Origin: Synechococcus sp. PROS-U-1 | GTDB taxonomy: Bacteria > Cyanobacteriota > Cyanobacteriia > PCC-6307 > Cyanobiaceae | Length of the DNA stretch: 64,000 nt | NCBI RefSeq assembly: GCF_014279755.1 | Contig: NZ_CP047951.1 | Coordinates: 1,550,001-1,614,000, forward strand | Direction: 5' to 3' | Shown here: positions 35,401 through 55,098 of the stretch, one piece after another | Layout of the letters: every line of letters starts with the position of its first letter | Position numbering within the stretch: the first letter of the stretch is position 1 | Notes under the pieces: generated by a model | What the model was told of the DNA's origin: nothing | What the model saw: the letters and a program-made list of their open reading frames with translations, nothing else | Databases searched by the model: none | Translations under genes and position numbers: made by a program

Positions 35401-36366
35401 CTAAGGGGCCGTCTGCGGCCTTGGATCCGGGCGATGAATCGGTGGCATCACCGTCAGGATCACCTCGGACCGCACCGGCCGGCCGAGTTCTGCACTGCAA
35501 CGGGCATCAATGTGATGGCGCAGCCCATCAATCACCCGACTTTCCTGGGGCTGCAGCGGATTGATGTAGACCACGACAAAGGCTGTACGACCCAGCTGCT
35601 GCACGGTGAAGTCCATCATCTGCAGCTGAAGCCCCACCAGTTCCTGCATCAACACAACCCGCGTGCGCTGCAACACATCCGGGTCGGCGGCGCAGCCGGC
35701 GGCCTGGGCCATGGCATCACGCAGTGCCGCCAAGGGTTCGCGCAACAACGCCAGGCTGACCGCAAGCACCAGAAGCGCATCGGTAATCGGCGCCAGAGCG
35801 GAAAGCGGCGTTGCCAGCAATAACGGAGAGGCCAGAAGGGCCAGGCCTGTGGCCAGGGTGATGACCGCATCGATCCGAGCATTGCGGGCCTCCGTCAACA
35901 GCAGCAGGGACACCCCCCCGGTGCGGCGCCAATCCCGCCGATGCCGCCAGGCCAAAAGCCCGCAAAGCGCTGTCATCAGAACGGTGTACAGCCCCACCGG
36001 TTCCAGATGCAGCGGAGCAATGCTGGAGCCCCGCCACCAGTCGATCAGAGTGGAGCAGGCGCTGCCGACGCCAAAGCCGATCACCCCCAGCAGCACCAGG
36101 GAGCGGAACAACACATACAAGGCCTCCTGCCCCTCGTAGCCATAGGGCCAGGCTCGATCCGGAGGACGCACCACATTCATGCTGATGCGGCTGGCAATCA
36201 ACGATGAACCCACCAGCACACCGGAATAGAGGCCGTCCAACAGCAGGGCCGACGAACCGGTCAGCACATGGGCGGAAAACCCGGCGAGTGCCATCACTGC
36301 ATTGGCTCCGACCCCAAAGCGCAGCGAGCGCTGTTCGATCCGGCGAGCCTCAGCAGTGGTGTTCAT
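35401..36366 (-). CDS. Cation-efflux (CDF-like) transporter
   Basis: The 321-residue product has about six helices and the CDF-like segments [20 protein letters not shown] and [25 protein letters not shown], then a cytosolic C-terminal domain. CDF proteins export divalent metals with a proton antiport. The first metal site keeps an Asp (LLDG), but the usual His of the H/DxxxD pairs is not obvious, so the ion is uncertain. It overlaps trmFO by four bases. Confidence 0.75.
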
Positions 36367-37733
36367 ACCGTCAGAGTCTCGGGTTGAAGGGCCTGCACCG
36401 GCTCCAGGTCATGCAGAGCGCGATCGCGGTAGGCGCCATAGCGGGCTCGCTTGTCGCGGATTCGCTCCGGTAGATCCGGCAGAAGCCCGAAATTGGGGGG
36501 CATCGGCTGAAATTTCGCGGTGGGCGCCTCGCTGACGAAATGCGTGAGGGCTCCACTCATGCAGGTCGCCGGCAAATCAATGGGCTCAAGCCCCCGGGCC
36601 AACCGAGCCGCATTGGTGCCGGCCAACCAGCCACCGGCGACGGCGGCGGCATAGCCCTCAGTGCCCGTGATCTGACCAGCAGCCAGGAGGGTGGGACGCT
36701 GACGGAATTGCAGCGTGGGCTGCAGCAGTTGCGGCGATTCAAGAAACGTGTTGCGGTGCATCACACCGAAGCGCACGAATTCCGCCTGGCCCAACCCAGG
36801 AATCATCTGAAGAACACGCTTCTGCTCTCCCCATTTGAGATTCGTCTGGAAGCCCACCAGATTCCACAGACGACCATCCTTGTCTTCCTGGCGCAGCTGA
36901 ACCACGGCATAGGCGCGCTTGGCCCGACGCACGTCGCGATCATTCACGTCACCCCAACGAGGGTCCCAGAGCCCGATCGGCTTCAACGGGCCATAGCGCA
37001 TGGTGTCTTCACCCCGACGGGCCAGCTCCTCAATCGGCAAACAGCCCTCAAAGAAGGTGGCGTCGTTCTGATCAAAGTCCTTGAGTTCGGCCTGTTCGGC
37101 TTCGAGCAAGGCCTGGCGGAAGGCCAGGTATTGCTCCTTGTCCATGGGGCAATTGATGTAGTCCGCATCACCCTTGTCGTAGCGGCTGGCGCGGAAGGCC
37201 ACCGACAGATCGATGCTGTCGCCATGGACGATTGGGCTCGCCGCATCAAAGAAGTGGCAATCAGCTCGGCCGGTGAAACAGCGCAGATCTTCCGCAAGGG
37301 GTTCACTGGTGAGCGGCCCCGTCGCCAGCACCGTGATCGCATCAGCCGGCGGCAGGGTGTGCTGCTCGCGGCGTTCAATCGTGACCAGAGGGTGTTGATC
37401 CAGAACTTCAGTCAGCGCAGCGCTGTAGCGACCGCGATCGACGGCCAACGCCCCACCCGCCGGGACAGCGTGGGTGTCTGCCGTGCCGATCACGAGGGAT
37501 CCCAGCCGACGCAACTCCTCCTGCAACAAACCCGCTGCACGGTCGCTGCTCAGGGCGCCGAAACTGTTGCTGCAGACCAACTCAGCGAAGTCGCTGCTGT
37601 GGTGGGCCGGAGATCGTCGAATCGGACGCATCTCCACCAGGGTGACTGCAACCCCAGCACGGGCGATCTGCCAAGCCGCCTCGGTGCCGGCAAGGCCTGC
37701 ACCGAGCACAGTGACATGGGGAGATTGAGACAA
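36363..37733 (-). CDS. trmFO: Folate-dependent tRNA U54 methyltransferase TrmFO
   Basis: The 456-residue flavoprotein starts [18 protein letters not shown] and contains [46 protein letters not shown] and [29 protein letters not shown], all characteristic. It makes ribothymidine at position 54 of tRNA using methylene-tetrahydrofolate and FAD. It is cotranscribed with the CDF-like transporter gene downstream. Confidence 0.95.
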
Positions 37734-37782
37734 CCAGCTGCATCAAGCAGCCTTCAGCCTACGAAGCTTGCTCGCCTGTGAA

Positions 37783-37995
37783 TCAAGCGCGGCTGCGCTT
37801 GAGCATCAGCTGCAGCTGACCCACCGCAGCACGGCCGATATTGAAGGCAGCCCAGCTGATGGCGGCGAGGATCGGAGCGACCACAAGGAACAGACGGGCA
37901 TCAATCCCCAGCACTTGGCCCGTGGTGATCACGCTGAAGGCCGAGTAACCGACGATCACCAGGATGAGGACCAGACCGATGGCAACTCGGACCAT
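37783..37995 (-). CDS. psbY: Photosystem II protein PsbY with an N-terminal extension
   Basis: The last 39 residues (ARLFLVVAPILAAISWAAFN to LKRSRA) match the single-helix PsbY of photosystem II, a small subunit near cytochrome b559. The ORF has 31 further residues upstream with a second hydrophobic helix (VAIGLVLILVIVGYSAFSVI). At the position where PsbY normally begins the codon is ATT (Ile), not ATG. Either the protein has two helices or translation starts at ATT. Confidence 0.85.
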   Translation of the reverse strand: MVRVAIGLVLILVIVGYSAFSVITTGQVLGIDARLFLVVAPILAAISWAAFNIGRAAVGQLQLMLKRSRA

Positions 37996-38098
37996 TCTTG
38001 AAAACGGAAATCAGTGTCGCCGATCTTACGGACTTCTACGTGGATCCCACGACCTTCCTTGAAAGCTGATCAAATTCGCAGCAATCAAGGGGTTGAGT

Positions 38099-38611
38099 TC
38101 AAGGAGTGTTTTGAGCGTGGGATGCCGCCAGTCGCGCATAGCGCTGGGCATGGTGGCGCTGCTCGTCGATCGCTTCGGGAGGAAGATCCCGCTTCACGAC
38201 GGCCGGGGCGCCCATCACCAGAGTCCCAGGGGGCACATCCTTTGTGACGACCGATCCAGCGGCGACCAGAGCACCTGCTCCAACAGTGACGCCATTCAGA
38301 ACGATGGCGCCAATTCCCACCAGGCATCCGTCGTCCAGCGTCGCGCCATGGATCACAGCCCTGTGGCCAACGGTGACGTCAGCACCAATGCGCACCGGCT
38401 GCCCTGGATCACCATGAAGGACGGCGCCATCCTGAATGTTGCTCCCCGCTCCGATGCTGATCTGTTCCAGATCACCGCGAGCCACAGCCATGGGCCAGAG
38501 GCTGCTGCCCTCAGCCATCCGGACGTTGCCGATTACAACAGCGGAATCGGCGACCCAAGCGTCCGCATCGATCTGGGGATCGGGCCAGGGCTTCGAGCCA
38601 GTCATGACCAT
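38099..38611 (-). CDS. Gamma-carbonic-anhydrase-like hexapeptide-repeat protein
   Basis: The 170 residues form a left-handed beta-helix: DSAVVIGNVRMAEGSSLWPM, ARGDLEQISIGAGSNIQDG, VTVGHRAVIHGATL and GIGAIVLNGVTVGAGALVAAG. The Arg-Gly-Asp box and the HGD, GH and HG histidines match gamma-CA metal ligands. Such trimers are found in the YrdA/PaaY group; carbonic anhydrase activity is plausible but not shown. Confidence 0.85.
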   Translation of the reverse strand: MVMTGSKPWPDPQIDADAWVADSAVVIGNVRMAEGSSLWPMAVARGDLEQISIGAGSNIQDGAVLHGDPGQPVRIGADVTVGHRAVIHGATLDDGCLVGIGAIVLNGVTVGAGALVAAGSVVTKDVPPGTLVMGAPAVVKRDLPPEAIDEQRHHAQRYARLAASHAQNTP

Positions 38612-38691
38612 GGTTCAGCAACCACCAGTTTCTCTGGCGACCTGAGTGATAACCTCATTCGGTGCCATAAATGGCATGCCCAAGCGGGCAC

Positions 38692-38763
38692 GGGTCGCTA
38701 GCTCAGCGGTAGAGCATCCGGCTTTTAACCGGCTGGTCCTGAGTTCGAATCTCAGGCGACCCA
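38692..38763 (+). tRNA. tRNA-Lys(TTT)
   Basis: The cloverleaf has acceptor stem GGGTCGC/GCGACCC, D-arm GCTC/GAGC, anticodon loop CTTTTAA (anticodon TTT) and T-loop GTTCGAATC. The length is 72 without an encoded CCA. Confidence 0.97.
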
Positions 38764-38858
38764 TATCAACGCTTTGATGTCGTCTCGTGACTCAGGCTGG
38801 CCTGCAACGCGGTGACTGTTAGAAAGCCGTGAATTCCCAGGTCTAGCCAGCTGTTCTC

Positions 38859-38951
38859 ATGGCGTATTTCGCGTTTTTTGGCGTCACGATTCTTCTGGCT
38901 CTGCTGGGCGGACTGTTTTCCCGGGTCGCTGCCGAGCGCTACTGGATGTGA
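38859..38951 (+). CDS. 30-residue single-helix membrane protein
   Basis: The frame MAYFAFFGVTILLALLGGLF then SRVAAERYWM gives one membrane helix with a short polar tail, the build of small photosystem or cytochrome b6f subunits. It lies between tRNA-Lys and the FAD gene, on the same strand. I do not recognise it as a named subunit. Confidence 0.6.
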   Translation: MAYFAFFGVTILLALLGGLFSRVAAERYWM

Positions 38952-38960
38952 TCAGCGGCG

Positions 38961-40127
38961 ATGACGTCAGCGAGCATGCCTGAGGTTGATCTCGCGGTCA
39001 TCGGTGCTGGGCTGTCCGGTTGCAGCCTTATTGGCCGGCTTCAGCAGTTGCAATCGGCTTTCAACATCGCAGTCGTTGAGGCTGGACGGGGACCAGGAGG
39101 CAGGGCAGCCAGCCGTCGCAGGCGAGATCTAAATGGTTGGTTTCTGGACCATGGAGCCCCTGGCTTTGCCCTCAGCCATTCCCTGTCTGATGGGATGGAT
39201 GCTCTGCTGTCGCCCTTGATCTCGGCGGGTGTACTTCAGCAGGACAAACGACCTGTGCTGTCACTCGACGTTGAAGCAGGCCTGTCTGCCGCTTCCAACC
39301 CTGAGGCCTGTCCAAGCGGGGGGTGGTGGCATGGACTTCCCTGCATGGCCCGCATCTGCGAAGCGCTGATTGAAAGCGGTGGATCAGCACAACTGAGCCG
39401 TCAATTCCAGACCCGAGTGCGCTGGTTGGAGCGTCGCCATGATCATTGGTTGCTGGAAAATGAGGACCGGAGCTGGAGCCTCAGGGCCCAGCGACTGGTG
39501 CTCAGTGGAACCCTGCTGGCCCATCCCCGCTCCCTGAAGATGCTGGCGTGGGATGACGTCCCCCTGCGATCAGCCGTTGCAGAGGGCGTGGACGTCGGCC
39601 TTGATGCGGTGCTCACCCAGCTGCAACGAAGCCAAGCCGAGGTGCGTTGGAACCTGATGGTGGACCTGGGCGTGCTTGAGCTCAACAGCGACGAACTCCC
39701 CTCTCAGATCTGGTTGAACGACGCAGCCAGGAAGCAATGGAAGGTGGAACGACTCGTTTTGCAACCTCAAAGCAATGGACGCTGGGGGCTGGTGGTGCAT
39801 GGTTTGGATTCCGGAGAAGCGATCACACCCCAAAGCCATGGACGCCTGCTTGCCCAAGAGCAAAAGCGCCTGGTGAGCCTGTTGCCCGAACTGCTCCAGG
39901 CTCTGCCGGTGGTTTCAGCCGCGTTGAAGCAGGCGACTCCCTTGGGTGTGATGCGATGGGGGGCCTCACGCCCCCTGAACCACCCGCTCAACCCAGAACT
40001 GCAGTGGTGCCCCACCAGCGCGGTGGGCTTTTGCGGCGACTGGATCAAGGGTCCTGGCTTCGGGACAGCGGAGGGAGCGATTCGAAGCGGCGTGGATCTC
40101 GCTGAACAGCTGCACGCTGACCGCTAA
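38961..40127 (+). CDS. FAD-dependent oxidoreductase, renalase/amine-oxidase fold
   Basis: The 388-residue protein has the FAD dinucleotide-binding start [18 protein letters not shown] and then [29 protein letters not shown]. The end is [21 protein letters not shown], the second flavin contact. This is the NAD(P)/FAD renalase-like pattern found in cyanobacteria and plants. The substrate is unknown. It starts nine bases after the 30-residue gene and ends 13 bases before tRNA-Pro. Confidence 0.85.
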
Positions 40128-40140
40128 CCTCTGAAGGCGC

Positions 40141-40217
40141 CGGGGAGTGGCGCAGTTTGGTAGCGCGCTTGCTTTGGGAGCAAGATGCCGCAGGTTCGAA
40201 TCCTGTCTCCCCGACCA
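40141..40217 (+). tRNA. tRNA-Pro(TGG), intact; integration target
   Basis: Acceptor stem CGGGGAG/CTCCCCG, anticodon loop TTTGGGA (TGG at 40175-40177), T-loop GGTTCGAATCC and an encoded CCA are all present. Its 3' half plus the terminator recur at 43.7 and 54.8 kb, marking it as the attachment site of the island. Confidence 0.97.
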
Positions 40218-40249
40218 CTTAAAAAGTCAGTCCCCAGCTGACATCTTGA

Positions 40250-40273
40250 CCGCTCCAGAAGGGGCGGTTTTTT
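40250..40273 (+). terminator. Terminator of tRNA-Pro
   Basis: CCGCTCC-AGAA-GGGGCGG followed by six T. The same stem with a different loop follows both partial tRNA copies (ATAA near 43760, GCAT near 54860). Confidence 0.9.
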
Positions 40274-40500
40274 ATTGCTCGCGCACGCGTATGTGGTCAC
40301 GGTGTGGTGAGAGACCAGGATCACGCCGCGCTCACCACACAAGTTTTCTGCCACCTGTTGACAGGAATTGGCGTGTTCACGACACTTGTTTCAAGCAAAC
40401 AGATTCAGAGGTCGGACACGTCAAACCTTCGCCCGTGGGGGTGAAGCGGCTTTCCCCGAGCTGACGTGAAACGCCTGAATCTGACGGGGTGGTGTGTGTG
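40274..40500 (+). repeat. tRNA-Pro downstream segment, also present after the third att copy
   Basis: The stretch after the terminator (TGGTGAG... TCACCACAC, then GTGGGGGTGAAGCGGCTTTC and TGACGTGAAACGCCTGAATC) recurs with moderate divergence at 54877-55098. The second att copy at 43.7 kb lacks it. No gene is seen in it. Confidence 0.7.
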
Positions 40501-40605
40501 AGGTTTTATCGGGAGATGGATAGCGACAATCACAACGCCCCCTGCTTTTCCCCGAAGGGTCTTGTATTGCTTTCAGCCACTCTGCGGTGGCATCAGCCGT
40601 AGTTA
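40476..40605 (-). repeat. R1 structured repeat, copy A (right arm lost)
   Basis: It carries the conserved core GATGGATAGCGACAATCACA, the CCC-CGAA-GGG hairpin and TTGTATTGCTTTCAGCC. The left arm TATCGGGAG is present, but the pairing right arm of other copies is missing. No terminator hairpin is attached here. It lies directly downstream of the secreted-protein gene on the minus strand. Confidence 0.75.
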
Positions 40606-40622
40606 ACGGAAGCCTTGTTATG

Positions 40623-40979
40623 TCAACGACAAAACTCCCCGGTTGGTACGAGCGTCCCCGATCCCACTTGGATTGCAGCGAAAACTTCTCCCGTTCGACG
40701 ATCAAGGCTCAAGTCGATAGGAATGTCGGGCTCTCCAGCCTCTACAGGGATAGTGCCCACCCAGCGCCAGACCCCGTCTTTAAATGTGGCCGGGCTGGTG
40801 TCCCTGTAACCGTCGGCATCCCAAATTCGGGTGATTCGACCATTCACTTCATCGATATACAAAGTCGAATTGGCGTACTCGACTTGAGGGTTTTCGCAGC
40901 GGAGCTTCAACTCCACGGCGTTGGCGGGACTAACAACAGTTGCGAGCACCGCAGCTGTGAGAACAGCAATGGACCTCAT
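40623..40979 (-). CDS. Small secreted protein, unknown function
   Basis: A signal peptide (MRSIAVLTAAVLATVVSPANA) precedes about 97 residues with two Cys (LRCENP at the start, GEFCR at the end) and a beta-rich middle (STLYIDEVNGRITRIWDADG). The start is chosen at the signal peptide; the ORF extends upstream over the terminase fragment in antisense. It is the first cargo gene of the island. Confidence 0.75.
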   Translation of the reverse strand: MRSIAVLTAAVLATVVSPANAVELKLRCENPQVEYANSTLYIDEVNGRITRIWDADGYRDTSPATFKDGVWRWVGTIPVEAGEPDIPIDLSLDRRTGEVFAAIQVGSGTLVPTGEFCR

Positions 40980-40999
40980 AGCTCGTGGATGGATGTGCA

Positions 41000-41347
41000 A
41001 TGAGTCAACTCCATCTAACGCTGAAGCCAAAGGCATCGATGGTGTTCGCCGATCCCGCCAGGTTCGTGATGGCGACCTGCGGACGACGATTCGGGAAGTC
41101 CTACCTGGCGTGCGCGAAGGCGTTGAAGGTCGCGCTGTCGAAGCCACGCTCGAACGTGCTGATGCTGGCGCCGACATTCGAGATGTCGAAGGCAACGCTC
41201 TGGCGAACGTTGACCGACATGGTCCCCGACAGCTGGATCGTGAAGCGGCTGGATTCAACGCTGGAGCTGCAGTTCACCAACGGCAGCTGGAGAGAGGAAC
41301 ACAGGACAGCCAGGAAATATTTGTATGAGCAGCAGAAGAGGCATTAA
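41000..41347 (+). pseudogene. Phage terminase large subunit, N-terminal fragment
   Basis: The frame has the packaging-ATPase Walker A variant TCGRRFGKSYLAC, then VLMLAPTFEMSKATLWRTL and LELQFTNGS, which in full proteins leads into Walker B. Here it runs out after about 100 residues into an unrelated tail. A normal TerL is 450-600 residues. It is a remnant of a tailed phage or of an element that used phage parts. Confidence 0.8.
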
Positions 41348-41536
41348 TGGATACCCCAGTACCCTGCCCTTGTCCAAAAAAGTACTACCCCTATGGGGGC
41401 TACTGTGCCCTTGCACACACGTGTATGAGACTTCAGAAATTTATTTCATTTTTTCTAAGGGGTTGGTATCCGTACAACACCCACGCTCACTATCTAAGGC
41501 TTCTTAGATTGAATAAGATAAATTGCTCCCCAATGG

Positions 41537-41725
41537 TTGTCTACCCCTTCTTTGGATAACAAAAGACAAGAGCTTCCTGAACTATATGATGATCTGAATT
41601 TTCTGCTCAGGAAGTTCAAGATGAGGACAGGTGCTGATGACAAATACATTTATATGATTTTAGGAGCATTGAGCAATGAATATAGAAAGAAGGCTGTTGA
41701 AATAGATGAATCAGCCTGGGGCTAA
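41537..41725 (+). CDS. Small phage-like acidic protein
   Basis: From a TTG start the 62-residue product reads MSTPSLDNKRQELPELYDD, FLLRKFKMRTGADDKYIYMI, EYRKKAVEIDESAWG. It is helical and charged, like many small phage or mobile-element proteins. It begins the AT-rich block. Confidence 0.5.
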   Translation: MSTPSLDNKRQELPELYDDLNFLLRKFKMRTGADDKYIYMILGALSNEYRKKAVEIDESAWG

Positions 41726-41738
41726 AGTCAAGCTATAT

Positions 41739-41906
41739 CTACATCAAAGAATTCTTGAAGAGGAGTTTGTCTTCCTCCTCTTGACCAAGAACCACATGCA
41801 CTCTTGTTCCATCTGACTATATATAGCATTCAGTAATGATTGAATCAGGGTGAACACCTGAAGTAATCTTTTCACCATCCAAGAGCAGGTAGCAGTAATG
41901 GCTCAT
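41739..41906 (-). pseudogene. Small gene interrupted by an in-frame TAG
   Basis: The frame MSHYCYLLLDGEKITSGVHP...TECYI reaches TAG at 41817-41819 and then continues without shift as SDGTRVHVVLGQEEEDKLLF to a second TAG. Together they would give a 55-residue protein with coherent composition. Read-through, a nonsense mutation or two separate pieces are possible. Confidence 0.45.
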
Positions 41907-41916
41907 CTTTGATGCC

Positions 41917-42015
41917 TTGGGATGTATTTACATCATTGAGCAGTGCAAAGAAAAGATACGCAAAGGACAAGTATCTTTACAGGGATTGGTCCATGATGAA
42001 CTAATTAGGCAATGA
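41917..42015 (+). CDS. Possible 32-residue phage-like protein
   Basis: A TTG start gives MGCIYIIEQCKEKIRKGQ... ELIRQ. The stretch 41726-42113 holds only this and the interrupted minus-strand frame. Support is weak. Confidence 0.25.
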   Translation: MGCIYIIEQCKEKIRKGQVSLQGLVHDELIRQ

Positions 42016-42113
42016 ACCCTTTAAGGGCTGAGTATATTGGCTTAGGTGTGAGTACACCAGAGCCCTTAATTCAAGCCCGTAGAGAGGCTAAAAACGGGCT
42101 CATAGTGCTTTAT

Positions 42114-42296
42114 TTAGCCCTTTTTTGACTGGGCTTGTGCCTTGTATCTATCGTAGAAAGAACCCCGTGCAGGAGCTTGACCACAGAGGTATCCGTATTC
42201 TTTGATGCTAATTTGTTTAGTGTTAGGTCTAGGCATAGTTTTAAATAGTTTGTTGTCTAGGTAACAGAATCCATTGAGTGGAAACGATATGTTCAA
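42114..42296 (-). CDS. Small basic protein
   Basis: The 60-residue frame (FPLNGFCYLDNKLFKTMPRP, SIKEYGYLCGQ, YDRYKAQAQSKKG) may start at the internal Met before PRPNTKQ. It is basic and contains one Cys in the tail. No family is recognised; its setting is the AT-rich phage-like block. Confidence 0.45.
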   Translation of the reverse strand: MNISFPLNGFCYLDNKLFKTMPRPNTKQISIKEYGYLCGQAPARGSFYDRYKAQAQSKKG

Positions 42297-42314
42297 TGTC
42301 CCCTCTGGTATGTC

Positions 42315-42500
42315 ATGTCCTATTGGGAGCAGAACTGGAGAAAGAATCTGAAACTCATCACTGTGGATGAAACACCACAGGCTCAGCAGATTGAGGTATC
42401 AAGCTGGTTGAAAGGCAGATGTGAATATCTACTTGGCTCAATAAGTTACCTTGAATATGAATGTCTTATTCAAGAATTTGATGACGTTGAAGAGTCATGA
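42315..42500 (+). CDS. Small acidic protein, first of three overlapping genes
   Basis: The 61-residue product (MSYWEQNWRKNLKLITVDE, WLKGRCEYLLGSISYLEYE, FDDVEES) resembles small phage proteins in size and composition. Its stop overlaps the ATG of the next gene. Confidence 0.55.
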   Translation: MSYWEQNWRKNLKLITVDETPQAQQIEVSSWLKGRCEYLLGSISYLEYECLIQEFDDVEES

Positions 42501-42664
42501 GCTACAACTTCCAAGCCTTAGCCTGGTATCTTTTTGCAGATTTCCTGGTGATTGGTGCTTTTAGGATTTATGCACCTGACTTCCTTGATAAGCAAAATAT
42601 TCTTTATCTGCTTGGTTCAAGCGTTGTTCTTTGGCTGATCTTTGATAGGAAGAAGAGGAGGTGA
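42497..42664 (+). CDS. Two-helix small membrane protein
   Basis: The 55 residues hold two hydrophobic segments (ALAWYLFADFLVIGAF; ILYLLGSSVVLWLIF) and a basic end FDRKKRR. The ATG overlaps the previous stop (ATGA), and the next gene begins two bases after its stop. This hairpin membrane-protein shape is common in phage lysis or modification modules; that is only a suggestion. Confidence 0.55.
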   Translation: MSYNFQALAWYLFADFLVIGAFRIYAPDFLDKQNILYLLGSSVVLWLIFDRKKRR

Positions 42665-42665
42665 T

Positions 42666-42821
42666 GTGGATTGGCTTGAAGGCTTGGGATGGGCAGGAGT
42701 GGTCTCAGTAGGATTCTCCTTTCTTTGGGACCTTTTCCTACCTTTGAACCTCATTGTGATTGCTGCTCTATATATATCCACCTTTCTTGCGTGGCTCTGC
42801 CTGGCAAGGGAGGTTAGATGA
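42666..42821 (+). CDS. Two-helix small membrane protein, second of a pair
   Basis: A GTG start (preceded by the AGGAGG end of the previous gene) gives 51 residues with membrane segments WAGVVSVGFSFLWDLFLP and LIVIAALYISTFLAWLCL and the tail AREVR. Tight spacing shows an operon with the two genes before it. Confidence 0.55.
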   Translation: MDWLEGLGWAGVVSVGFSFLWDLFLPLNLIVIAALYISTFLAWLCLAREVR

Positions 42822-43005
42822 GTGAGGCGTTCTGAGCCTTTAAGACAGCAATCTCTGCTTGTAGCTCTTCAATCTTCTGAAGCAAGAGACTATTAGCTTC
42901 ATTCAGGTCTGCTGCCTTAATGGAGTCACCAACGTTGTAGGTAGGAATGACATCACCAGAAGGGCTAGGTGCTTCAGGTTCTGTAGATCGGCTTGAGGTG
43001 ACCAC
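42814..43005 (-). CDS. Small coiled-coil protein at the recombinase breakpoint
   Basis: A Ser/Pro-rich head (SSRSTEPEAPSPSGD) is followed by a clear leucine-zipper-like helix (LNEANSLLLQKIEELQAEIA VLKAQNASL). It overlaps the last 32 bases of the truncated recombinase in another frame. It could have replaced the recombinase 3' end by recombination. Confidence 0.55.
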   Translation of the reverse strand: MVTSSRSTEPEAPSPSGDVIPTYNVGDSIKAADLNEANSLLLQKIEELQAEIAVLKAQNASLI

Positions 43006-43519
43006 GTTGCACCGCCCAATTCAGAAAGCCATAGAGCTTCTGACGACTTGTCTGGCGCATCCGTAAGCCCTGTTCCCATTGCTTGAGGCACTCCATCGCC
43101 AATGCCTCGCCATCAACCGGTGGCTTACCTTCAAAGCAGACACGCAGGTTCTTCAGGACAGGCAGGTAGTTGTATCGCCACGTTGTGTCGCCAGCGTTGG
43201 GGATGAACTCCCGATATTTCTCAAACAGCTTGTTGAAATCCAGCTTCTGATGACTGCTGGAGGTGTCGGCTTTCTGTGCTGCAGCAGCAAGGGTGATCTG
43301 ACCACGGTTCCACCGCTTGAAGATCTGCTGAATGCGAGGGAGGGCTGAGCTGGCTCCCTCTTGAGACCAGGGGTAGATCAACATCACTGACCCATGGTCT
43401 TGAACCTCAAGTCGCATCCGCCCACGTGCATTGCGCACCTTCCATCCCGCGCCACAGGAGGTGCGAACCAATTCTCGAAAAGGCTTGATCCAGGTGGCTC
43501 TATCGACGACGCGTGGCAC
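42974..43519 (-). pseudogene. Tyrosine recombinase, N-terminal half only
   Basis: The 181-residue frame has the arm-binding and SAM-like core-binding portions of a phage-type integrase (RVVDRATWIKPFRELVRTSC; QIFKRWNRGQITLAAAA; DTTWRYNYLPVLKNLRV; FLNWAVQRGHLKPIY). It stops exactly where the catalytic domain with the R...HxxR...Y residues should begin. It reads away from the partial tRNA 155 bases upstream, the usual geometry of an integrase beside its att site. Confidence 0.8.
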
Positions 43520-43668
43520 AACGAGAAAGGCATCTCGCTATGTCTAGTGTGCACAAAACGTGCGCAAAATGCAAAATACCTGCCAACACCTGCTGACAAC
43601 TCACGACTCAAAAGCACTACTAAAACTGAGTCAGAGACTGGGAAAACACAGAAATTGACTCAAGGAAT

Positions 43669-43780
43669 CTCTCGCTTTAGGAGCAAGATGCCGCAGCTTC
43701 GAATCCTGTCTCCCCGACCACTTAAAAAGTCAGACCCCAACTGATATCTCCACCGCTCCATAAGGGGCGGTTTTTTATTG
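43669..43780 (+). repeat. Second att copy: tRNA-Pro 3' half plus terminator
   Basis: From GGAGCAAGATGCCGCAG through the CCA and the terminator it matches the tRNA-Pro 3' end with a few changes (G to C in the T-arm; loop ATAA). The left flank CTCTCGCTTTAGGAGC is shared with the third copy but not with the real tRNA, so it is the element's own arm. Confidence 0.9.
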
Positions 43781-43902
43781 CTTTTGTGCAGGTGTGCCAA
43801 ATTTGCGCCGAATTCAGCCCCAAAAAAAAGGCCTGAACAAAAACCTGCGCCTCTGACATAAGTCGGTATGGTCTGAACAACGCCGGAGACGGTGCGAACC
43901 GG

Positions 43903-43926
43903 AAACCCCGCCTTGAGACGGGGCTA
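43903..43926 (-). terminator. Terminator of the gene at 44033
   Basis: On the minus strand AGCCCCGTC-TCAA-GGCGGGGTTTCC forms a GC-rich hairpin with a short T-run. It lies about 110 bases after the stop. Confidence 0.6.
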
Positions 43927-44032
43927 AGTGTTAATCAAACTATTACAATTTGATTCAGCATTCGGGAAGAGATTGCGACATGCAAACTGCAGCACCCATA
44001 AGAATCAACTCCAATCAATTATTGATCATATA

Positions 44033-44893
44033 TTAGCCGTTGGAATCAAAGCAATCGAACAAAGAAGCTTGATTGGCGATAGTAAGGTAATCGGCGTATG
44101 AGGTCTGCGTCAACGGATTCGCTTCTCCGGAACTGGTTAGAATACCGGTAAAGATATCACGGTATGCATCAACGCCAGAGAGCAGGAGACTGCTCAATTC
44201 ATCAGAATTGATGTTTACGTATTGATCTTGCAAGGCGACATCATTGTTATCATCAGATGTCGCTTGATCTGCTACGTACTGAAGCGAGCTCTGAACCATC
44301 TTATACTGCTGAGAAGGAGTGAATGGCTGAGTTTCTTCATTTTCATAGAGGCTAACAAATGCATAGTTACTACCTTTGGCATTTGTGAAAGTCGCGGATT
44401 GAGGCCCAAACGCAGATCCCCATGCGCCAGAAACAAAATTATTCAGAGCATTAGCCGTAGCTGAACACTCGTAGTTATTATAAGCATTATCAATAAATAG
44501 TGAGACCTCGGACATTTCTTTGCCGGCCAAGCCGGTCAAATCATCTTTGTTGCTCGCGCCAATACCACGAACCTTGAAACTTATGGTTTGATTTGAATTA
44601 CTCAGCTTCGGCTTGAACATTTCGAACGTCACCAGCTTCCGCTTGTTGCCCACCTCGAAGGTGGCTTGGGCATTCGGCGGCCCGTCGCCATCACCAAATA
44701 GCCCGTCCCACTTCTTCACAAGCTGCTTGGGTGACCACTCACCAGCGACACGGTTAGGGCGGTCTGTGAACCAATCAATCTCATCAACGCCCTTCAGCAC
44801 CATGCGGTAGCTGCCGTTCTTGCGTTGCTTAATCCGACCAGAGTCCACAAGAGCACCGAAGAGCAGGGATGAACCAGCAGGAGGTTTCGCCAT
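44033..44893 (-). CDS. PPAG-head accessory protein, unknown function
   Basis: The 286 residues begin MAKPPAGSSLLFGALVDSGR and continue YRMVLKGVDEIDWFTDRPNR, WSPKQLVKKWDGLFGD, PNAQATFEVGNKRKLVTFEM. I have an impression of this arrangement in other marine Synechococcus accessory proteins, often in Ca-binding or type-I-secreted company, without a function. There is no signal peptide. The C-terminal half is Asp/Asn/Ser-rich. A terminator follows. Head fragments recur at 58978 and, more distantly, 30956. Confidence 0.75.
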   Translation of the reverse strand: MAKPPAGSSLLFGALVDSGRIKQRKNGSYRMVLKGVDEIDWFTDRPNRVAGEWSPKQLVKKWDGLFGDGDGPPNAQATFEVGNKRKLVTFEMFKPKLSNSNQTISFKVRGIGASNKDDLTGLAGKEMSEVSLFIDNAYNNYECSATANALNNFVSGAWGSAFGPQSATFTNAKGSNYAFVSLYENEETQPFTPSQQYKMVQSSLQYVADQATSDDNNDVALQDQYVNINSDELSSLLLSGVDAYRDIFTGILTSSGEANPLTQTSYADYLTIANQASLFDCFDSNG

Positions 44894-44935
44894 GGGTGAG
44901 CTGAAATTGCCCTAGTGGTAGCAGTGTTGCCAATA

Positions 44936-45073
44936 AAAAACCCCATCTTGCGACGGGGCTAGTAAATGTTTTGTCGGGAGATGGATAGCGACAATCACAA
45001 CGCCCCCTGATTTTCCCTTACGGGTTTTGTATTGCTTTCAGCCTGCTACTCCTGCGGCATCAGGCTCCCCGAC
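44936..45073 (-). repeat. R1 structured repeat, copy B, with terminator
   Basis: Minus strand: outer arm, AGCCTG/CAGGCT stem, CCC-TTAC-GGG hairpin, conserved core, pairing arm TGTCGGGAG (44972-44980), then the hairpin CCCCGTCGCAAGATGGGG with six T. The pairing right arm at 45065-45073 has one extra C. Confidence 0.8.
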
Positions 45074-45267
45074 TCATAACCCAGCAATAATTAGCGGCAA
45101 GTCGTAGTGCCACACATGTCAAATGCCCATTAGCTCAGCCGCATGTTTGAGCAGGAAAAATCGCTCAAGCTCCGTGGTAACAACAGATACTCGGGTTAAG
45201 CGTTAAGAAGAATCTCTCATGCCAGCCCAAAAATGGGTTATCAACGATCTCATTTGAAATCGTTGCG

Positions 45268-45762
45268 ATGAAATGGCTGCTCTCGAAACTTGGTTTGCTC
45301 AGACAGGACAAAAAGGCCCAGCCTCTGAAGCAAGATCTCTCGTTTTTCAAGACCTCGGTTTGCTCCAATGACATCGCGTGCCAATGGGGACTAAGGAAGC
45401 AAACTCAGGTCTTGCTGAGCCAAAGTAAAGAAGCAGCTGTGTTGATCAGAATCAGGGATGCATCCGGTGATGGCACTGTTGCTACAAAGGTGGTGGAACT
45501 CGGCCCCAATGCAACAAAAGCAAAAATTGATACACCATTTACTAGCGGTCAGGTTCTTCTTGAGCTTGGTTATCGAACTGTTGGAGGTGACTTTATTACG
45601 CTTGAGTATTCATTCGTTGACCTTGGCCCAAAAAAAATTGTGCAGCCAGAGTTAGCGAATTGGTTTAGTAAGGAATCGGAGAATATTCACCAGGAAATGT
45701 ACGATTTAGCGACCAAAGGAAGATCCCTTGGTGGGTCCGAACTCATGCCTATCGGCCGGTAA
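45268..45762 (+). CDS. Soluble accessory protein, possibly DUF4912-like
   Basis: The 164 residues start MKWLLSKLGLLRQDKKAQPL and include CQWGLRKQTQVLLSQSKEAA, GGDFITLEYSFVDLGPKK and an end YDLATKGRSLGGSELMP. A beta-sandwich with a short GRSLGGSE tail recalls DUF4912 proteins, but I am not sure. No signal peptide is present. Confidence 0.65.
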   Translation: MKWLLSKLGLLRQDKKAQPLKQDLSFFKTSVCSNDIACQWGLRKQTQVLLSQSKEAAVLIRIRDASGDGTVATKVVELGPNATKAKIDTPFTSGQVLLELGYRTVGGDFITLEYSFVDLGPKKIVQPELANWFSKESENIHQEMYDLATKGRSLGGSELMPIGR

Positions 45763-45819
45763 TCCTGATGGTCACGCGGCATGTCTCGCCTGTTGAGGCT
45801 TTGCGTGTGGCGTTGTTGG

Positions 45820-45925
45820 TGAGACGTGACTGCCAGAAGTATTCCCCGCTCTGCTCAAGCAACAAAAACCCCGCCATTGCTGACGGGGTGAAGTGTGTGT
45901 GAGGTTTTGTCGGGAATCGATAAGA
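45820..45925 (-). repeat. R1 terminator (truncated copy) followed by R2 leader
   Basis: Minus strand: a short R1 remnant (TCCCGACAAAACCTCACAC), the terminator CCCCGTCAGCAATGGCGGGG with T-run, then directly the R2 leader TTGCTTGAGCAGAGCGGGGA. R2 elsewhere precedes the 40-residue small genes; here no such gene follows. Confidence 0.7.
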
Positions 45926-45986
45926 GGTGCATCAAAGCAGCTGTAAATCATTAAAGTAGGACTCAGCATTACCGAATATCTGATCA

Positions 45987-46430
45987 ATGATCCGTAATTC
46001 ACTAGGTATTTTCATCGGAGTCCTCGCAACCTCGTTCGCATGGACCGCTCAGTTAGCAGCCGCCACCTGGGTCGATACCGACAAAATCAGCAATTCCAGG
46101 AACTTGCAAATGCAAGTAGATATAGACTCAGTTAATTACAAAGGAGATTGGATTTACTTTTTGCAGAGGATCAAAAATCTTGACGACTCGAAAGCATACA
46201 AGCCATGGGATGTAGGGATCAATTGCTCAAAAGGCGTGCTTGTTGAAAGATTTTCAGGTTCGGACGAGTACGAGTCGACTCAGTTTCGGCGCAATGGCAA
46301 GTGGTTTATAGACTTCGCCAACAGAAACGACCCTAGTGACGTATTCAGCGTGGAGGTCGAAGCTGAAGATGATGCATACAGAGAGAAATCATATTCCTTC
46401 ATTTGCTACAAGTATAACCGACAACAGTAA
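45987..46430 (+). CDS. Secreted accessory protein, unknown function
   Basis: A signal peptide (MIRNSLGIFIGVLATSFAWTAQLAAA) precedes about 120 residues rich in beta strands (LQMQVDIDSVNYKGDWIYFL) with two Cys (VGINCSKG, SFICYKY). It probably acts in the periplasm. An R1 copy lies just downstream on the opposite strand. Confidence 0.75.
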   Translation: MIRNSLGIFIGVLATSFAWTAQLAAATWVDTDKISNSRNLQMQVDIDSVNYKGDWIYFLQRIKNLDDSKAYKPWDVGINCSKGVLVERFSGSDEYESTQFRRNGKWFIDFANRNDPSDVFSVEVEAEDDAYREKSYSFICYKYNRQQ

Positions 46431-46440
46431 TCGAAACCAA

Positions 46441-46581
46441 ACCCCGCCATTGCTGATGGGGTGAAGTGTGTGTGAGGTTTTGTCGGGAGATGGATAGCGA
46501 CAATCACAACGCCCCCTGCTTTTCCCCGAAGGGTTTTGTATTGCTTTCAGCCCCGTGTCTTAGGCGTCAGGCTTCCCGACA
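46441..46581 (-). repeat. R1 structured repeat, copy C, full length
   Basis: Arms TGTCGGGAG (46481-46489) and CTTCCCGACA (46572-46581) pair over nine positions. Inside are AGCC/GGCT and the CCC-CGAA-GGG hairpin. On the minus strand it ends in the hairpin CCCCATCAGCAATGGCGGGG and a weak T-run. It begins 13 bases after the next minus-strand gene's stop (46594). Confidence 0.85.
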
Positions 46582-46593
46582 TGTACGAAGTTC

Positions 46594-46878
46594 TTATCTG
46601 AAGCAATTAGTACCTGCTGCTTTATCAAGCATTTCTGCAGTCGTTGTTGCATTCGCATCTGCATAAGCAACAGCAGGATTTACTCCAAGTTCCCTCATGT
46701 ATTTTTCGGCTTGCGCACCTCCCTGTGACTTTAGAATTTGGCCATGCTTAATATCACAAGCAGCCTTCCAATAAGCAGTTGCAGCTTTTTGGGTGTTAGT
46801 GAGAGCGGTTGCAGGTAGGGCGACAATCAAAGACACCCCTATTGCAGAAATGAATGAGAGTCGCTGAGAAGTGTTCAT
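46594..46878 (-). CDS. Small secreted protein with two cysteines
   Basis: The start MNTSQRLSFISAIGVSLIVA opens a signal peptide ending ALPATA. The 70-residue mature part has KAACDIKHGQ and GTNCFR, a likely disulphide. An upstream ORF extension covers the NGDGVFTGR module and is not part of it. Copy C of R1 follows its stop and may act as its 3' end. Confidence 0.7.
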   Translation of the reverse strand: MNTSQRLSFISAIGVSLIVALPATALTNTQKAATAYWKAACDIKHGQILKSQGGAQAEKYMRELGVNPAVAYADANATTTAEMLDKAAGTNCFR

Positions 46879-46889
46879 TTGATTGGTAT

Positions 46890-46935
46890 GTGTTGTGGGC
46901 CTCTCGCCCCGTGAACACACCATCTCCGTTCATGT
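46890..46935 (-). repeat. NGDGVFTGR module, copy 1
   Basis: On the minus strand this reads MNGDGVFTGREA in one frame. A near-identical stretch (WNGDGVFTGRKIK) lies at 53915-53950, and a related NWSRDSGDGVYIGW opens the RTX-like protein at 60409. The acidic loop resembles a Ca-binding site. Confidence 0.55.
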
Positions 46936-47009
46936 CAGAAACACATCCCCCAAATGAGGGATTTTCAAGGCACCGCGATAGACACGGCAGCATCCACCTC
47001 CTCCCCCCC

Positions 47010-47105
47010 CACTGACTGCCATCGCTGGAAGAGGTCAGGGTCATTGGCGCATAGAGCAGCAACCAGCTCTCCCATCAGGAATAAGGCAATGCGGGTGTCT
47101 TAAGT
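47010..47105 (-). pseudogene. Decayed copy of the 40-residue DTRxALFLMGELVAAL family
   Basis: The minus-strand frame DTRIALFLMGELVAALCAND matches the intact gene at 50843-50965, but the ATG region has become ACT TAA and the C-terminus is changed. Confidence 0.65.
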
Positions 47106-47192
47106 CAAACCTTTTCCATACAACCTTCTTCAGATGCCACCACCTTGGTGTGATGCCGGGCTATCGCACACAGGCAGAGGAAGATCCTCTAC

Positions 47193-47351
47193 TCAATATC
47201 CGCCAATTCGCAGAACCATCTCAAGAGCACTCAAGCCAAAGATGAAGGTGCCGCCAAGCAGCGCAAGTTCCTTCTTGGATGAAGCCATGGGAAGGAGGGC
47301 AGAGCCCATGATGAGGGATGCGAAGAATATAAAGGGATTCTGAAGCTCCAA
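47193..47351 (-). CDS. Small two-helix membrane protein
   Basis: A TTG start gives 52 residues with two membrane segments (FIFFASLIMGSALLPM; LALLGGTFIFGLSALEMVL) separated by ASSKKE. A later ATG in the first helix is less likely. No family is recognised. Confidence 0.45.
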   Translation of the reverse strand: MELQNPFIFFASLIMGSALLPMASSKKELALLGGTFIFGLSALEMVLRIGGY

Positions 47352-47455
47352 GCTGTCGCTCTCAGCACAGAAGCAAGTCTCTCACTGGATGTAACGAAAA
47401 CTTCATTAAGCACTCGTTACTTAGGTTTAATTACCTATGAATATCGCAGCGCTCT

Positions 47456-47596
47456 TCATATAACTTTATCTATATGTTGAGAGTGGATCCAGGAGTGTAA
47501 TCGCTCGATACACCAGAAGTAGGTTCTGAACTCCATGGTGTTCCAGTTGCTTCGAAAGGCTGATAGGAACAGAGCAATGCGGGTGTCTTGAGACAT
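47456..47596 (-). pseudogene. Truncated copy of the 40-residue family
   Basis: The head MSQDTRIALFL is kept, preceded by the R2 leader, but after 11 residues the sequence changes to unrelated codons. The R2 leader and a terminator lie just upstream. Confidence 0.55.
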
Positions 47597-47671
47597 GGGC
47601 CAGACGTGACTGCCTTGAGTGTTTCCCGCTCTGCTCAAGCAATAAAAAGCCCCGCCTTGCGAGCGGGGCTA
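47597..47671 (-). terminator. Terminator of the gene at 47734 running into R2 leader
   Basis: Minus strand: AGCCCCGC-TCGCAAG-GCGGGGCT with TTTTATT (47644-47671), then the R2 leader TTGAGCAGAGCGGGAAACAC (to about 47597) that precedes the truncated small gene. Confidence 0.8.
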
Positions 47672-47733
47672 AAGACCAATAGTGCTATTGCTGGAGGCTG
47701 AAGCAAATTGTTCTGACGGTTTATCGCAAATTC

Positions 47734-48126
47734 TTATTTGAAGCATCCTGGATTTGCTTTCTTTACTGTTGAAATCACGCCTGGTGCAATATCGATCTTC
47801 AAGAATTCATCTGCATCGTATTGCTTGAACATCTTCAAATACTTGTCTTTGGTCTCTTCTAAGATTTCACTGTTGGCGCTTAAAAAGCAAATGAGAGATA
47901 AGTTTGTTGTTTGACTGATGACGGCACTCAGTACGTCACATGCCATCTCTCGTTTGACGCTAGATCGGCAGAAGCTCATCACGTCGTCAACGGAGTCAAA
48001 TGGCTTTTCGGCAGCGGCTGATGCTTTCAAAAGGATTGGTGAGTTGGTCTCCTGTGCTCTTGATGGAAGCGGAGCAATGGCAATGGCAGAAGCCACAAGT
48101 CCGGTGGAGAGTCGGCGGAGCATCAC
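47734..48126 (-). CDS. Secreted accessory protein with shared signal-peptide module
   Basis: The signal peptide MMLRRLSTGLVASAIAIAPL PSRAQ is almost the same as in the beta-barrel protein at 52279, as is the leader before it. The mature part, about 105 residues, has four Cys (SFCRSS, MACDVL, LICFLS, NPGCFK) and no similarity to the barrel. Function is unknown. Confidence 0.75.
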   Translation of the reverse strand: MMLRRLSTGLVASAIAIAPLPSRAQETNSPILLKASAAAEKPFDSVDDVMSFCRSSVKREMACDVLSAVISQTTNLSLICFLSANSEILEETKDKYLKMFKQYDADEFLKIDIAPGVISTVKKANPGCFK

Positions 48127-48169
48127 TCAAGCGCAATTCCGCGAATGATGCCGTCGATGCCCTCGGTCG

Positions 48170-48448
48170 TCACGCAAGCCAACGAGTAATCACGGTGCCT
48201 TCGTAGACATGACCAGAGGCTTCGACAATCGGCTTGGTCTCTGGGTTCGTGAAGATGTTGTAGAGGACGTCTTCGGGTCCTTGAAACATCACTGTCGCTC
48301 TTTTGGGGTCGTCCTTGCAGACACCAATAAAGAAGGTCTTTACTCCCATCTCGGCAAACATCGCTTGCTGCTCAGGAGCATTCATATGTGCGCGATATTC
48401 CTCAAACGTGTTGCTGAGCTTGAAGTCCAGAACAGTTGTCTCAGTCAT
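48170..48448 (-). CDS. DUF3764-family protein, copy 1
   Basis: The 92-residue product (TVLDFKLSNTFEEYRAHMNA, MGVKTFFIGVCKDDPKRA, GHVYEGTVITRWLA) has the ferredoxin-like dimeric barrel pattern of DUF3764, a cyanobacterial family without assigned function. A second copy at 61537 is more than 90% identical by eye, including about 60 bases upstream, so the duplication is recent. Confidence 0.85.
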   Translation of the reverse strand: MTETTVLDFKLSNTFEEYRAHMNAPEQQAMFAEMGVKTFFIGVCKDDPKRATVMFQGPEDVLYNIFTNPETKPIVEASGHVYEGTVITRWLA

Positions 48449-48482
48449 GGTTTGAGTGGTTCTAGTTCGCAATAGAACTGTT

Positions 48483-48713
48483 TTAACCAGCTTCAGGAGC
48501 CCAGCCCACTTCCTTCAGCCACGTCGGCGCCCAGAGCTTGCAGCGCTTCTTTAGGTGCTCGCCCTGCTGCAGTTGCTTCTGCCTGAGGTTGCAGCCCACC
48601 ATCGTGTGGCAGTGGTGGTCGACGCCATAGGTGAAGTGTTGGCAGGTCATGAAGACCACGCCGCCTTTCCAGTTCTGCAGGTCGCGCTCGTCGACAAAAT
48701 CCCACTCCTCCAT
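48483..48713 (-). CDS. Cys/His-rich small protein
   Basis: The 76-residue product (MEEWDFVDERDLQNWKGGVV, MTCQHFTYGVDHHCHTMVGC, KKRCKLWAP) has four Cys and several His that could bind zinc. The start at MEEWDF is preferred over an upstream Met. It lies in a run of minus-strand small genes. No family is recognised. Confidence 0.65.
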   Translation of the reverse strand: MEEWDFVDERDLQNWKGGVVFMTCQHFTYGVDHHCHTMVGCNLRQKQLQQGEHLKKRCKLWAPTWLKEVGWAPEAG

Positions 48714-48771
48714 CGCCACTAGATACAAGTACGCCTGTTCTGATAATGGTGGGTCGGTTTTGGCAACGGGG

Positions 48772-48987
48772 TTAGCGGTCCCAACGACGCCTCAGCTGCG
48801 GGATCACCACAAAGTCCATCACCGCAAAGCTAAACAGGCACGGCAGGAAGCCCCTCTCCACGAAACCGCACACCAGCCGTCGCGGGTCCAAAACGCAGAC
48901 CACCAACTGAGCAATCCAAAAGACCGCCACCTTGATGGCGAACGAAGTGAGGGCGAAACGCCTTTCAGCTGCACTGAGACGAAACAC
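48772..48987 (-). CDS. Small membrane protein, RLSAAE family, copy 1
   Basis: The 71 residues (MFRLSAAERRFALTSFAIKV, FWIAQLVVCVLDPRRLVC, ERGFLPCLFSFAVMDFVV, RRRWDR) have two membrane helices. The gene at 55979 on the opposite strand is a clear paralogue. Function is unknown. Confidence 0.7.
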   Translation of the reverse strand: MFRLSAAERRFALTSFAIKVAVFWIAQLVVCVLDPRRLVCGFVERGFLPCLFSFAVMDFVVIPQLRRRWDR

Positions 48988-49054
48988 TGCCAGCAGTCAG
49001 CAGACGAATCACAATGGGTTGATTCGCCGTGTAAGGCAATAGGCTGACCGAAAA

Positions 49055-49159
49055 TCAAGCCTCGACTGTGATCGCGTTGGCAGCGGCATGCAGATCGTGA
49101 GTCGCATCGGGCTTGAACCGTGCGTAGCTCTTGAGGTGAACTTCGATCGTGTGCCCCAT
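49055..49159 (-). pseudogene. Detached tyrosine-recombinase C-terminal tail, copy 1
   Basis: The frame MGHTIEVHLKSYARFKPDAT resembles the last box of phage integrases (L/M-GH....H...Y), with the catalytic Tyr candidate in KSYARF, and ends ANAITVEA. Nothing upstream in frame resembles the rest of the domain. The stretch 49160-49445 holds no gene that I can see. Confidence 0.65.
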
Positions 49160-49445
49160 GGGGGCAGATGTTTGCAGCGGCAGGTTCATTGCGTGCGACC
49201 GCTTCGCGTAGTGAAACCTGTTCTGATCCTTATGACCGTCACCAATTGTTCGGATGTAAGCCTCACCTCATTCGCCTCGGTATGCGGATCGTGCATATCG
49301 GATCAATTTGGCCCATCACCTCCATCAGAGCCCATCAGAATAACGTTGGTCTCAGGGGGGTGTGCCTTGTGCAGAACGAGCACCCCTTTGTTTCCACCTT
49401 GTTAGCCAGTGCAGGTCCATCGACACAGCAGATCGTCTGGTTGGG

Positions 49446-54764: not shown

Positions 54765-54876
54765 GGATCTCTCGCTTTGAGAGCAAAAAGCCGCAGGTTC
54801 GAATCCTGTCTCCCCGACCACTTAAAAAGGCAGTCCCCAGCTGAGATCTCCGCCGCTCCGCATGGGGCGGTTTTTT
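54765..54876 (+). repeat. Third att copy: tRNA-Pro 3' half plus terminator
   Basis: GAGAGCAAAAAGCCGCAGGT through TCTCCCCGACCA and the terminator (loop GCAT) match tRNA-Pro. The left flank GGATCTCTCGCTTT is shared with the second copy. After it, a further 220 bases repeat the segment downstream of the real tRNA-Pro. Confidence 0.9.
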
Positions 54877-55098
54877 ATTACTTGATCGCGTCTGTGTGAT
54901 CAGGGTGTAGTGAGGGCACAGGTCCACGCATCGATCACCACACGACTTCTCCAGAAGTTGTTGAAAGGATTTGGAACGTTCTTGGCCTTTGAACCCAGCA
55001 AACGAGTTCAATGGTCGGATCCGTCTATCCTTAGACCGTGGGGGTGAAGCAGCTTTCCCCGAGATGACGTGAAAGGCCAGAATCTGACGGGGGGAAAC
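54877..55098 (+). repeat. Copy of the tRNA-Pro downstream segment
   Basis: It matches 40274-40490 with many changes, ending GTGGGGGTGAAGCAGCTTTC, TGACGTGAAAGGCC, GAATCTGACGGGG. No gene is seen. Confidence 0.7.

Follow-up and report, generated by a model that had tools for sequence, protein, structure and literature searches.

The window analysed here is a 64,000-nucleotide stretch of the genome of Synechococcus sp. PROS-U-1 (contig NZ_CP047951.1), and coordinates refer to it, continuing beyond its right end where necessary. On each side of a 3.5-kb stretch within it, which carries the beginning of a phage terminase large-subunit (TerL) gene, there is a copy of the tRNA-Pro(TGG) 3' half together with its terminator. 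The features are:

40141..40217, + strand: tRNA-Pro(TGG), the integration target (ARAGORN; Rfam tRNA)
40168..40279, + strand: att copy 1, the tRNA-Pro 3' half plus terminator (112-nt direct repeat, 92% identical to copy 2; 19-copy alignment)
40623..40979, - strand: cargo gene; its 118-aa product appears by eye to have a signal peptide, and it has no meaningful match in Pfam or PHROG and none in PADLOC
40980..41002, no strand: 23-nt spacer between the divergent start codons, recognizable at six of six loci and 77-91% identical to that of the window
41003..41290, + strand: TerL head, approximately residues 1-96, Walker A intact (PHROG, tblastn, genome search, alignment)
41291..41347, + strand: tail of the ORF up to its stop, beyond the TerL alignments (phage alignments end earlier)
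41291..42983, no strand: AT-rich segment between the two breaks (42.2% GC)
42974..43519, - strand: about 180 N-terminal residues of a tyrosine integrase that has lost its catalytic domain; the break is near 42984 (95% to the intact G005 integrase)
43671..43782, + strand: att copy 2, where the 3.5-kb element ends on the right; its core is mutated (repeat search, 19-copy alignment)
54771..54882, + strand: att copy 3, where the following segment (11 kb) ends on the right; its core is mutated (88% identical repeat)

The att alignment comprises 19 copies from this genome and eight others (AG-679-C18 lies outside the set), and approximately 46 nt of the tRNA 3' end form a core common to all of them. 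In the window this core has substitutions in copies 2 and 3, whereas six of the eight far copies of the relatives have none; two far copies in G029 are missing one core base. Past the core, the left type of flank differs from the right type in G026, G029 and G023, as would be expected for recombination within the core. Further partial copies of the tRNA-Pro 3' sequence are present in 10 of the 34 genomes of the genus, this one included (the shortest is 45 nt, and in some draft genomes copy and tRNA are on different contigs). An Rfam scan of 39900-56000 returned the tRNA and two weak matches under the gathering scores, which were set aside.

Two genomes have nearly empty sites. In G033 the sequence found here from 69393 onward begins 1.2 kb after tRNA-Pro, and in G014 the sequence of 68976-69317 sits approximately 3.4 kb from the tRNA, so that by this comparison the PROS-U-1 island measures approximately 29 kb. 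Sequences resembling the 78.6-kb position of PROS-U-1 adjoin tRNA-Pro in G007 and G032, as do sequences resembling its 96.1-kb position in G007. Gene order to the right of tRNA-Pro is not conserved in the genus, as judged from these two genomes (the other loci compared were too short). The interval 43783-54770 is a second att-bounded segment of 11 kb and 48% GC with small cargo-like ORFs and no integrase (by eye).

The ORF at 40985-41347 (+ strand) probably starts at the ATG at 41003. Its first 96 residues match TerL families in PHROG (phrog_2, 8e-9; phrog_7579, 3e-8). With tblastn (E up to 0.01) 85 phage records matched; among the 30 matches listed the lowest E-value is 7e-13, and the aligned part stops at residues 99-101 of the 120-aa query. 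The final 18 residues of the ORF are not covered by these phage TerL alignments. A query derived from a seven-row alignment confirmed at least 561 viral stretches among the 600 pattern matches listed (best 80 kept). The Walker A residues GRRFGK are identical in all seven rows, and GRRFGKS is intact in the ORF. The preliminary description, made from the sequence alone, had reported a TerL head with intact Walker A, and this is borne out. It had named a better match to a cellular ATPase family as the finding that would overturn it; no such family scored (Pfam Terminase_6N reached 13.7 bits, under its 22-bit cut-off), and the significant family and phage matches listed are to terminases. With no point found in its favour, the probability that the ORF is a fragment of a cellular ATPase is negligible.

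When a 414-aa TerL relative was searched against the whole genome (E up to 10), only its residues 5-97 were matched; the remainder of this terL, including Walker B and the C-terminal nuclease domain, is therefore gone from the genome. A TerL of a different family (504 aa) is encoded outside the window. No promoter-like site was detected upstream of the ORF on its strand between 40100 and 41003. Over 40100-43850 three sites were found against 3.2 expected, none of them inside terL, so that a promoter proposed inside terL has no consensus support. The terL piece looks dead and the remnant inert. One might propose instead that the product has been domesticated as a small protein with a function of its own, in keeping with the open frame and the intact Walker A. 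This is very improbable, given the loss of the Walker B and nuclease parts, the want of an upstream promoter-like site in the interval just mentioned, and the stubs of the same gene at five other loci (below), which are at most about 44 codons long and run into unrelated sequence.

The integrase fragment adjoins the right att copy. By itself it gave no meaningful match in Pfam or PHROG, but its residues 1-179 are 95% identical to the intact integrase of a 10-kb element at the same tRNA in G005, a protein of 390 aa from the first start codon which matches Phage_integrase (PF00589) at 2e-9; the truncated integrase of the preliminary description is thus confirmed. The "tiny AT-rich genes" mentioned there fared less well. 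The interval 41291-42983 is indeed AT-rich (42.2% GC versus 61.6% at 36000-40100), but that its tiny ORFs are genes is unproven, since the searches made returned no convincing relatives of them. The DNA of this segment has no phage match, and in 151 genomes of the family it finds, besides itself, a single stray of 33 bp. Three AT-rich ORFs have no phage match at E up to 1, and a viral-contig scan with an AT-rich ORF yielded no confirmed relatives. The sequence fused to the integrase break (42817-42984) finds only itself in 300 genomes, and its weak coiled-coil matches in Pfam were attributed to composition.

Eleven elements were compared by blastp of ORFs of at least 70 aa, ORF families antisense to real genes being ignored: seven at tRNA-Pro (the window, G005, G029, G006, G023, G026 and AG-679-C18), one more from PROS-U-1 itself, and three with serine recombinases (G029, G027, G118). 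The tyrosine integrase family is common to eight of the eleven, with the window fragment among them; an HTH/excisionase-like gene occurs in six, a TerL of about 414 aa in five (window included) and one of about 504-524 aa in three. The six intact tRNA-Pro elements range from approximately 9.9 to 17.0 kb, and each possesses an integrase and a replication-type gene: VapE-like helicases in G005 (a VapE-type primase/helicase), G006 and G023, a DnaB/primase-helicase-like protein in G029, and an AAA_25 protein in G026. A protein of 107-108 aa belonging to phrog_34910, a family without an assigned function, occurs in both G005 and G006. Three of the six carry TerL. Those of G029 and G023 (523-524 aa) belong to a family different from that of the window head, and the G005 element, which has the closest integrase, has none, either by a search with the TerL head or among its ORFs. 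This element also encodes a lactate/malate dehydrogenase-like cargo protein (L075, 4681-5766).

The third TerL-bearing element is that of AG-679-C18 (QCUL01000008.1), where two copies of the tRNA-Pro 3' end lie 17.0 kb apart and a third is on another contig. It specifies an integrase, a 413-aa TerL (43% identity with the window head), a TerS-like protein (phrog_4044, 2e-4; PF06056 above cut-off), a Prim-Pol/DUF3987 protein and a 971-aa tape measure. Its integrase adjoins the tRNA, whereas the other elements have theirs at the far att, and it shares only 30% identity with the G005 integrase in an alignment of 313 columns. TerS had been the label given by eye to several small HTH-type proteins encoded upstream of TerL; it was dropped for all except those of AG-679-C18 and L007, which the family scans back. 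The L007 element, in addition to its TerS-like protein, possesses like that of L006 a large serine recombinase and TerL, and both appear to interrupt a comF-like gene (name by eye).

A PHROG scan of 50 proteins from the intact tRNA-Pro relatives and related elements (a subset of the ORFs, many without a family) gave no capsid or portal match; an unrecognized structural protein may be present among the scanned or remaining ORFs. Likewise, nothing of a prophage module (capsid, portal, tail) was found in the scanned ORFs of the window or the scanned proteins of its relatives, except the AG-679-C18 tape measure. Viral-contig scans with the window head alone, the G005 integrase and the 524-aa TerL returned no confirmed relatives. 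Two properties of satellites can be compared with these data. The first, an att-flanked unit with an integrase, is seen in the window, where the integrase is a fragment with an intact 95% relative. The second, genes for replication and/or redirection of packaging without capsid or portal, would apply to the intact relatives as far as recognized families among their scanned proteins go; of such genes the window keeps only the terL stub.

We consider that the interval 40168-43782 is probably the decayed remainder of an integrative satellite-like element in tRNA-Pro(TGG). The preliminary description offered a decayed prophage or a satellite, which was right in kind; the satellite is the favoured branch because the 3.5 kb are att-flanked, the integrase is 95% identical to that of an intact 10-kb element at the same tRNA, and none of the 50 proteins matches a capsid or portal family. 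Descent from a complete temperate cyanophage is unlikely. TerL relatives do occur in cyanobacterial contigs with portal-like genes (L086/L137 and Prochlorococcus L142; portal by eye), in phages HTVC111P and S-2L, both with an annotated portal beside terL, and in Aegir, and relic prophages with TerL are described for Synechococcus RS9917 in the accessible text of PMC2784084. However, only 3.5 kb are left here, intact elements at the same tRNA measure 10-17 kb and, together with related elements, gave the negative capsid and portal scan described above (on a subset of their ORFs), and the G005 integrase matched nothing in viral contigs in a pattern search. As far as that text goes, the RS9917 relics are P-SS2-like and, as in the window, include TerL remnants in tRNA-bordered islands of a marine Synechococcus; unlike the window they retain several phage genes, including a structural gene and a lysozyme (PMC2784084). 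The terL region of P-SS2 (L256) gave no tblastn match to the window head at E up to 10.

The preliminary description proposed placing the fragment in a TerL phylogeny. In a tree of 24 rows, from which redundant and short rows had been excluded beforehand and to which the window contributes 96 residues, the window head pairs with a G029 head (98/86) and weakly with pelagiphage Aegir (89/84). The TerL proteins of AG-679-C18, G118, RCC307 (a lone head), AG-683-C23 and G029 form a clade (100/96), and in the best tree the window TerL falls outside this clade of picocyanobacterial element proteins. Constraining the window and G029 heads to group with the element TerLs was not rejected (p-AU 0.325). 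Beyond the pairing with another Synechococcus remnant, the fragment is too short for the tree to settle the origin of the head. The RCC307 head (Synechococcus; L087, 7785-8081, and L168) is 98 aa long and ends in unrelated residues.

The cargo gene is present in five of 300 genomes of the family, PROS-U-1 included; PADLOC gave no match for seven island proteins. At six loci, which belong to five genomes (the window, G023, G029 twice, G329 and G192), the cargo gene and a terL stub are arranged head-to-head, the stubs being approximately 95, 44, 21 or 9 codons long and that of the window the longest by far. Codons 1-9 are 78-85% identical to the window at all five other loci. Beyond codon 9 no more than background identity is left in G023, G329 and the second G029 locus; in G192 the similarity continues as far as codon 21 or so, and in the first G029 locus as far as codon 44 or so. 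All five stubs end in unrelated sequence. The nearest 50 nt or so of the terL/cargo start region are recognizable at all six loci. Five of the six lie by tRNA-Pro, tRNA-Arg or tRNA-Ala sequence. The first G029 copy and the G023 copy are within arrays of tRNA-Arg(TCT) 3' ends. In G192 tRNA-Ala(GGC) lies approximately 200 nt from the cargo gene start in the orientation opposite to terL, and in G329 a 40-nt tRNA-Ala 3' copy with one mismatch occupies a similar position in the same orientation as terL, with no complete tRNA within 20 kb. The second G029 locus has no tRNA within 14 kb. The G029 region C1:521781-551459 contains five tRNA-Arg(TCT) 3' ends on one strand, the last being the tRNA gene itself, and is a stacked island.

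By this recurrence, one junction has been moved to several locations, and its terL side has been eroded to different lengths. Since the tRNAs differ, the TerL head may have come with the cargo gene rather than with the integrase, and the stub, on the evidence of these alignments, is a scar tied to the cargo gene which may have arrived with it. The recurring cargo-terL stub junction is what is new here. It is quite possible, if somewhat short of an even chance, that the secreted-protein gene and the terL 5' stub entered as a cassette from another element, and that the recipient tRNA-Pro element never held this terL; this account overlaps with the decayed satellite-like element preferred above. 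The recurrence of one junction, with stubs of four lengths, at six loci, four of them in tRNA-Arg arrays or by tRNA-Ala sequence, speaks for it, as does the different TerL family in the tRNA-Pro elements of G029 and G023. Against it, AG-679-C18 is a tRNA-Pro element with a TerL of the same broad family, and the longest stub is that of the window, as one might expect near the source.

Over terL codons 1-44 the window and the first G029 locus show 37 differences (10, 8 and 19 at first, second and third positions), and of the 27 changed codons 17 are synonymous and 10 are not. From this excess of third-position and synonymous changes, much of the divergence probably arose under protein-coding constraint. 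The first 21 codons of the cargo gene have 0-2 nonsynonymous differences per pair. Over the whole cargo gene, dN exceeds dS in nine of the 15 pairs, all nine involving a G029 copy (window versus first G029 copy: dS 0.12, dN 0.22), whereas the six pairs without G029 have ratios of 0.35 to 0.99 (window-G329, 0.99). Binomial tests against neutral site proportions gave 0.04, 0.13, 0.02, 0.02 and 0.98 for five selected, non-independent pairs. The apparently odd evolution of this gene comes from the G029 copies and is a lead only; the product is possibly a surface or exclusion protein under changed selection in G029.

If the decayed satellite-like element is the correct reading, it would have entered the 3' half of tRNA-Pro(TGG) by means of its tyrosine integrase. 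To judge from gene content, the intact relatives would excise and integrate by that integrase and replicate with their own primase/helicase, and those with terminase genes would have element DNA packaged into the particles of a helper phage, on which the element would presumably depend. In the window the catalytic half of the integrase is gone and only 96 codons of terL are left head-to-head with the cargo gene; the stub perhaps survives since the beginning of terL would contain the 5' region of that gene. Several observations go against this reading: no TerL was found in the G005 element, the AG-679-C18 integrase is differently placed and 30% identical, the window TerL lies outside the element clade in the best tree, no relatives of the middle 1.7 kb were found, and gene order to the right of tRNA-Pro is not conserved in the genus. 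A more far-reaching proposal is that marine Synechococcus harbours a family of phage satellites which are anchored at tRNAs and have no capsid genes, and that at least one member (AG-679-C18), with TerS-like protein, TerL and full-length tape measure, could redirect both packaging and tail length of the helper. The cargo moved by these satellites would be a secreted protein, fast-evolving in some lineages, and terL stubs would persist since the 5' control region of the cargo gene lies inside the terL start. We regard this proposal as doubtful at present.

The decayed element is real and ordinary in kind; interest lies in the family of elements and in the cargo-terL junction that travels. Prophages have been reported to be hard to find in marine picocyanobacteria (accessible text of PMC2784084, 2009), and phage-type packaging genes in tRNA islands therefore bear on how islands move. 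Through its relatives, the locus ties an apparently dead terL fragment to elements of 10-17 kb that are intact and occupy the same tRNA, and a secreted cargo gene which keeps its terL scar near several tRNAs is a possible marker of island movement.

In their accessible portions, PMC10872708, PMC10803314, PMC11389934 and PMC10187409 deal with tRNA-bordered tycheposons and phage satellites and with another integrase family of picocyanobacteria, located close to tRNA-Phe or tRNA-Cys. Tycheposons, which belong to Prochlorococcus and other marine bacteria, are there counted among the proposed phage satellites. The window locus resembles them, so far as these texts describe them, in its border tRNA, tyrosine recombinase (here a fragment) and variable cargo, as judged by architecture rather than by recombinase clade or their seven tRNAs. 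It differs in being a dead 3.5-kb remnant. PICIs are islands of small size that encode an integrase and replication proteins but no capsid module. PICMI satellites share this layout, and the accessible text of PMC10803314 reports no homologs of terS, sid or ppi in them. The present elements are similar to both, except that some relatives encode TerL and one a TerS-like protein and tape measure. VEIMEs, as far as the available descriptions extend, are likewise integrative mobile elements of marine bacteria; virion encapsidation is theirs, whereas the elements discussed here are known from genes alone. In the literature searched (mostly without subscription papers) no paper on elements with this gene set was recognized, and no priority is claimed.

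A second, intact-looking element lies outside the window in PROS-U-1 (G000:C1, ca. 1628929-1646076; window coordinates 78929-96076), in a stretch which is absent from G007 at the corresponding place. It encodes a tyrosine integrase, an 802-aa tape measure, the 504-aa TerL, an HTH protein and a primase-like protein. Use of the tRNA-Pro att by this element, which is 15 kb beyond the window, was considered but gained no support, as no tRNA-Pro 3' core was found there with up to 3 mismatches; nor was another att site located for it. Similar proteins are encoded at 44033-44893 of the window, in L079 (5015-5806) and in L007 (5588-6472), that is, in island and element contexts; the last two were related by blastp and that of the window by eye. 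Lastly, an 87-nt repeat is located at 40492-40578, 44957-45043 and 46466-46552 (84-98% alike). A 149-nt query beginning with it finds 11 places in the genome, itself included, and at two of its three positions in the window the repeat follows, at a distance of 40-45 nt, the 3' end of a small gene encoded on the other strand.
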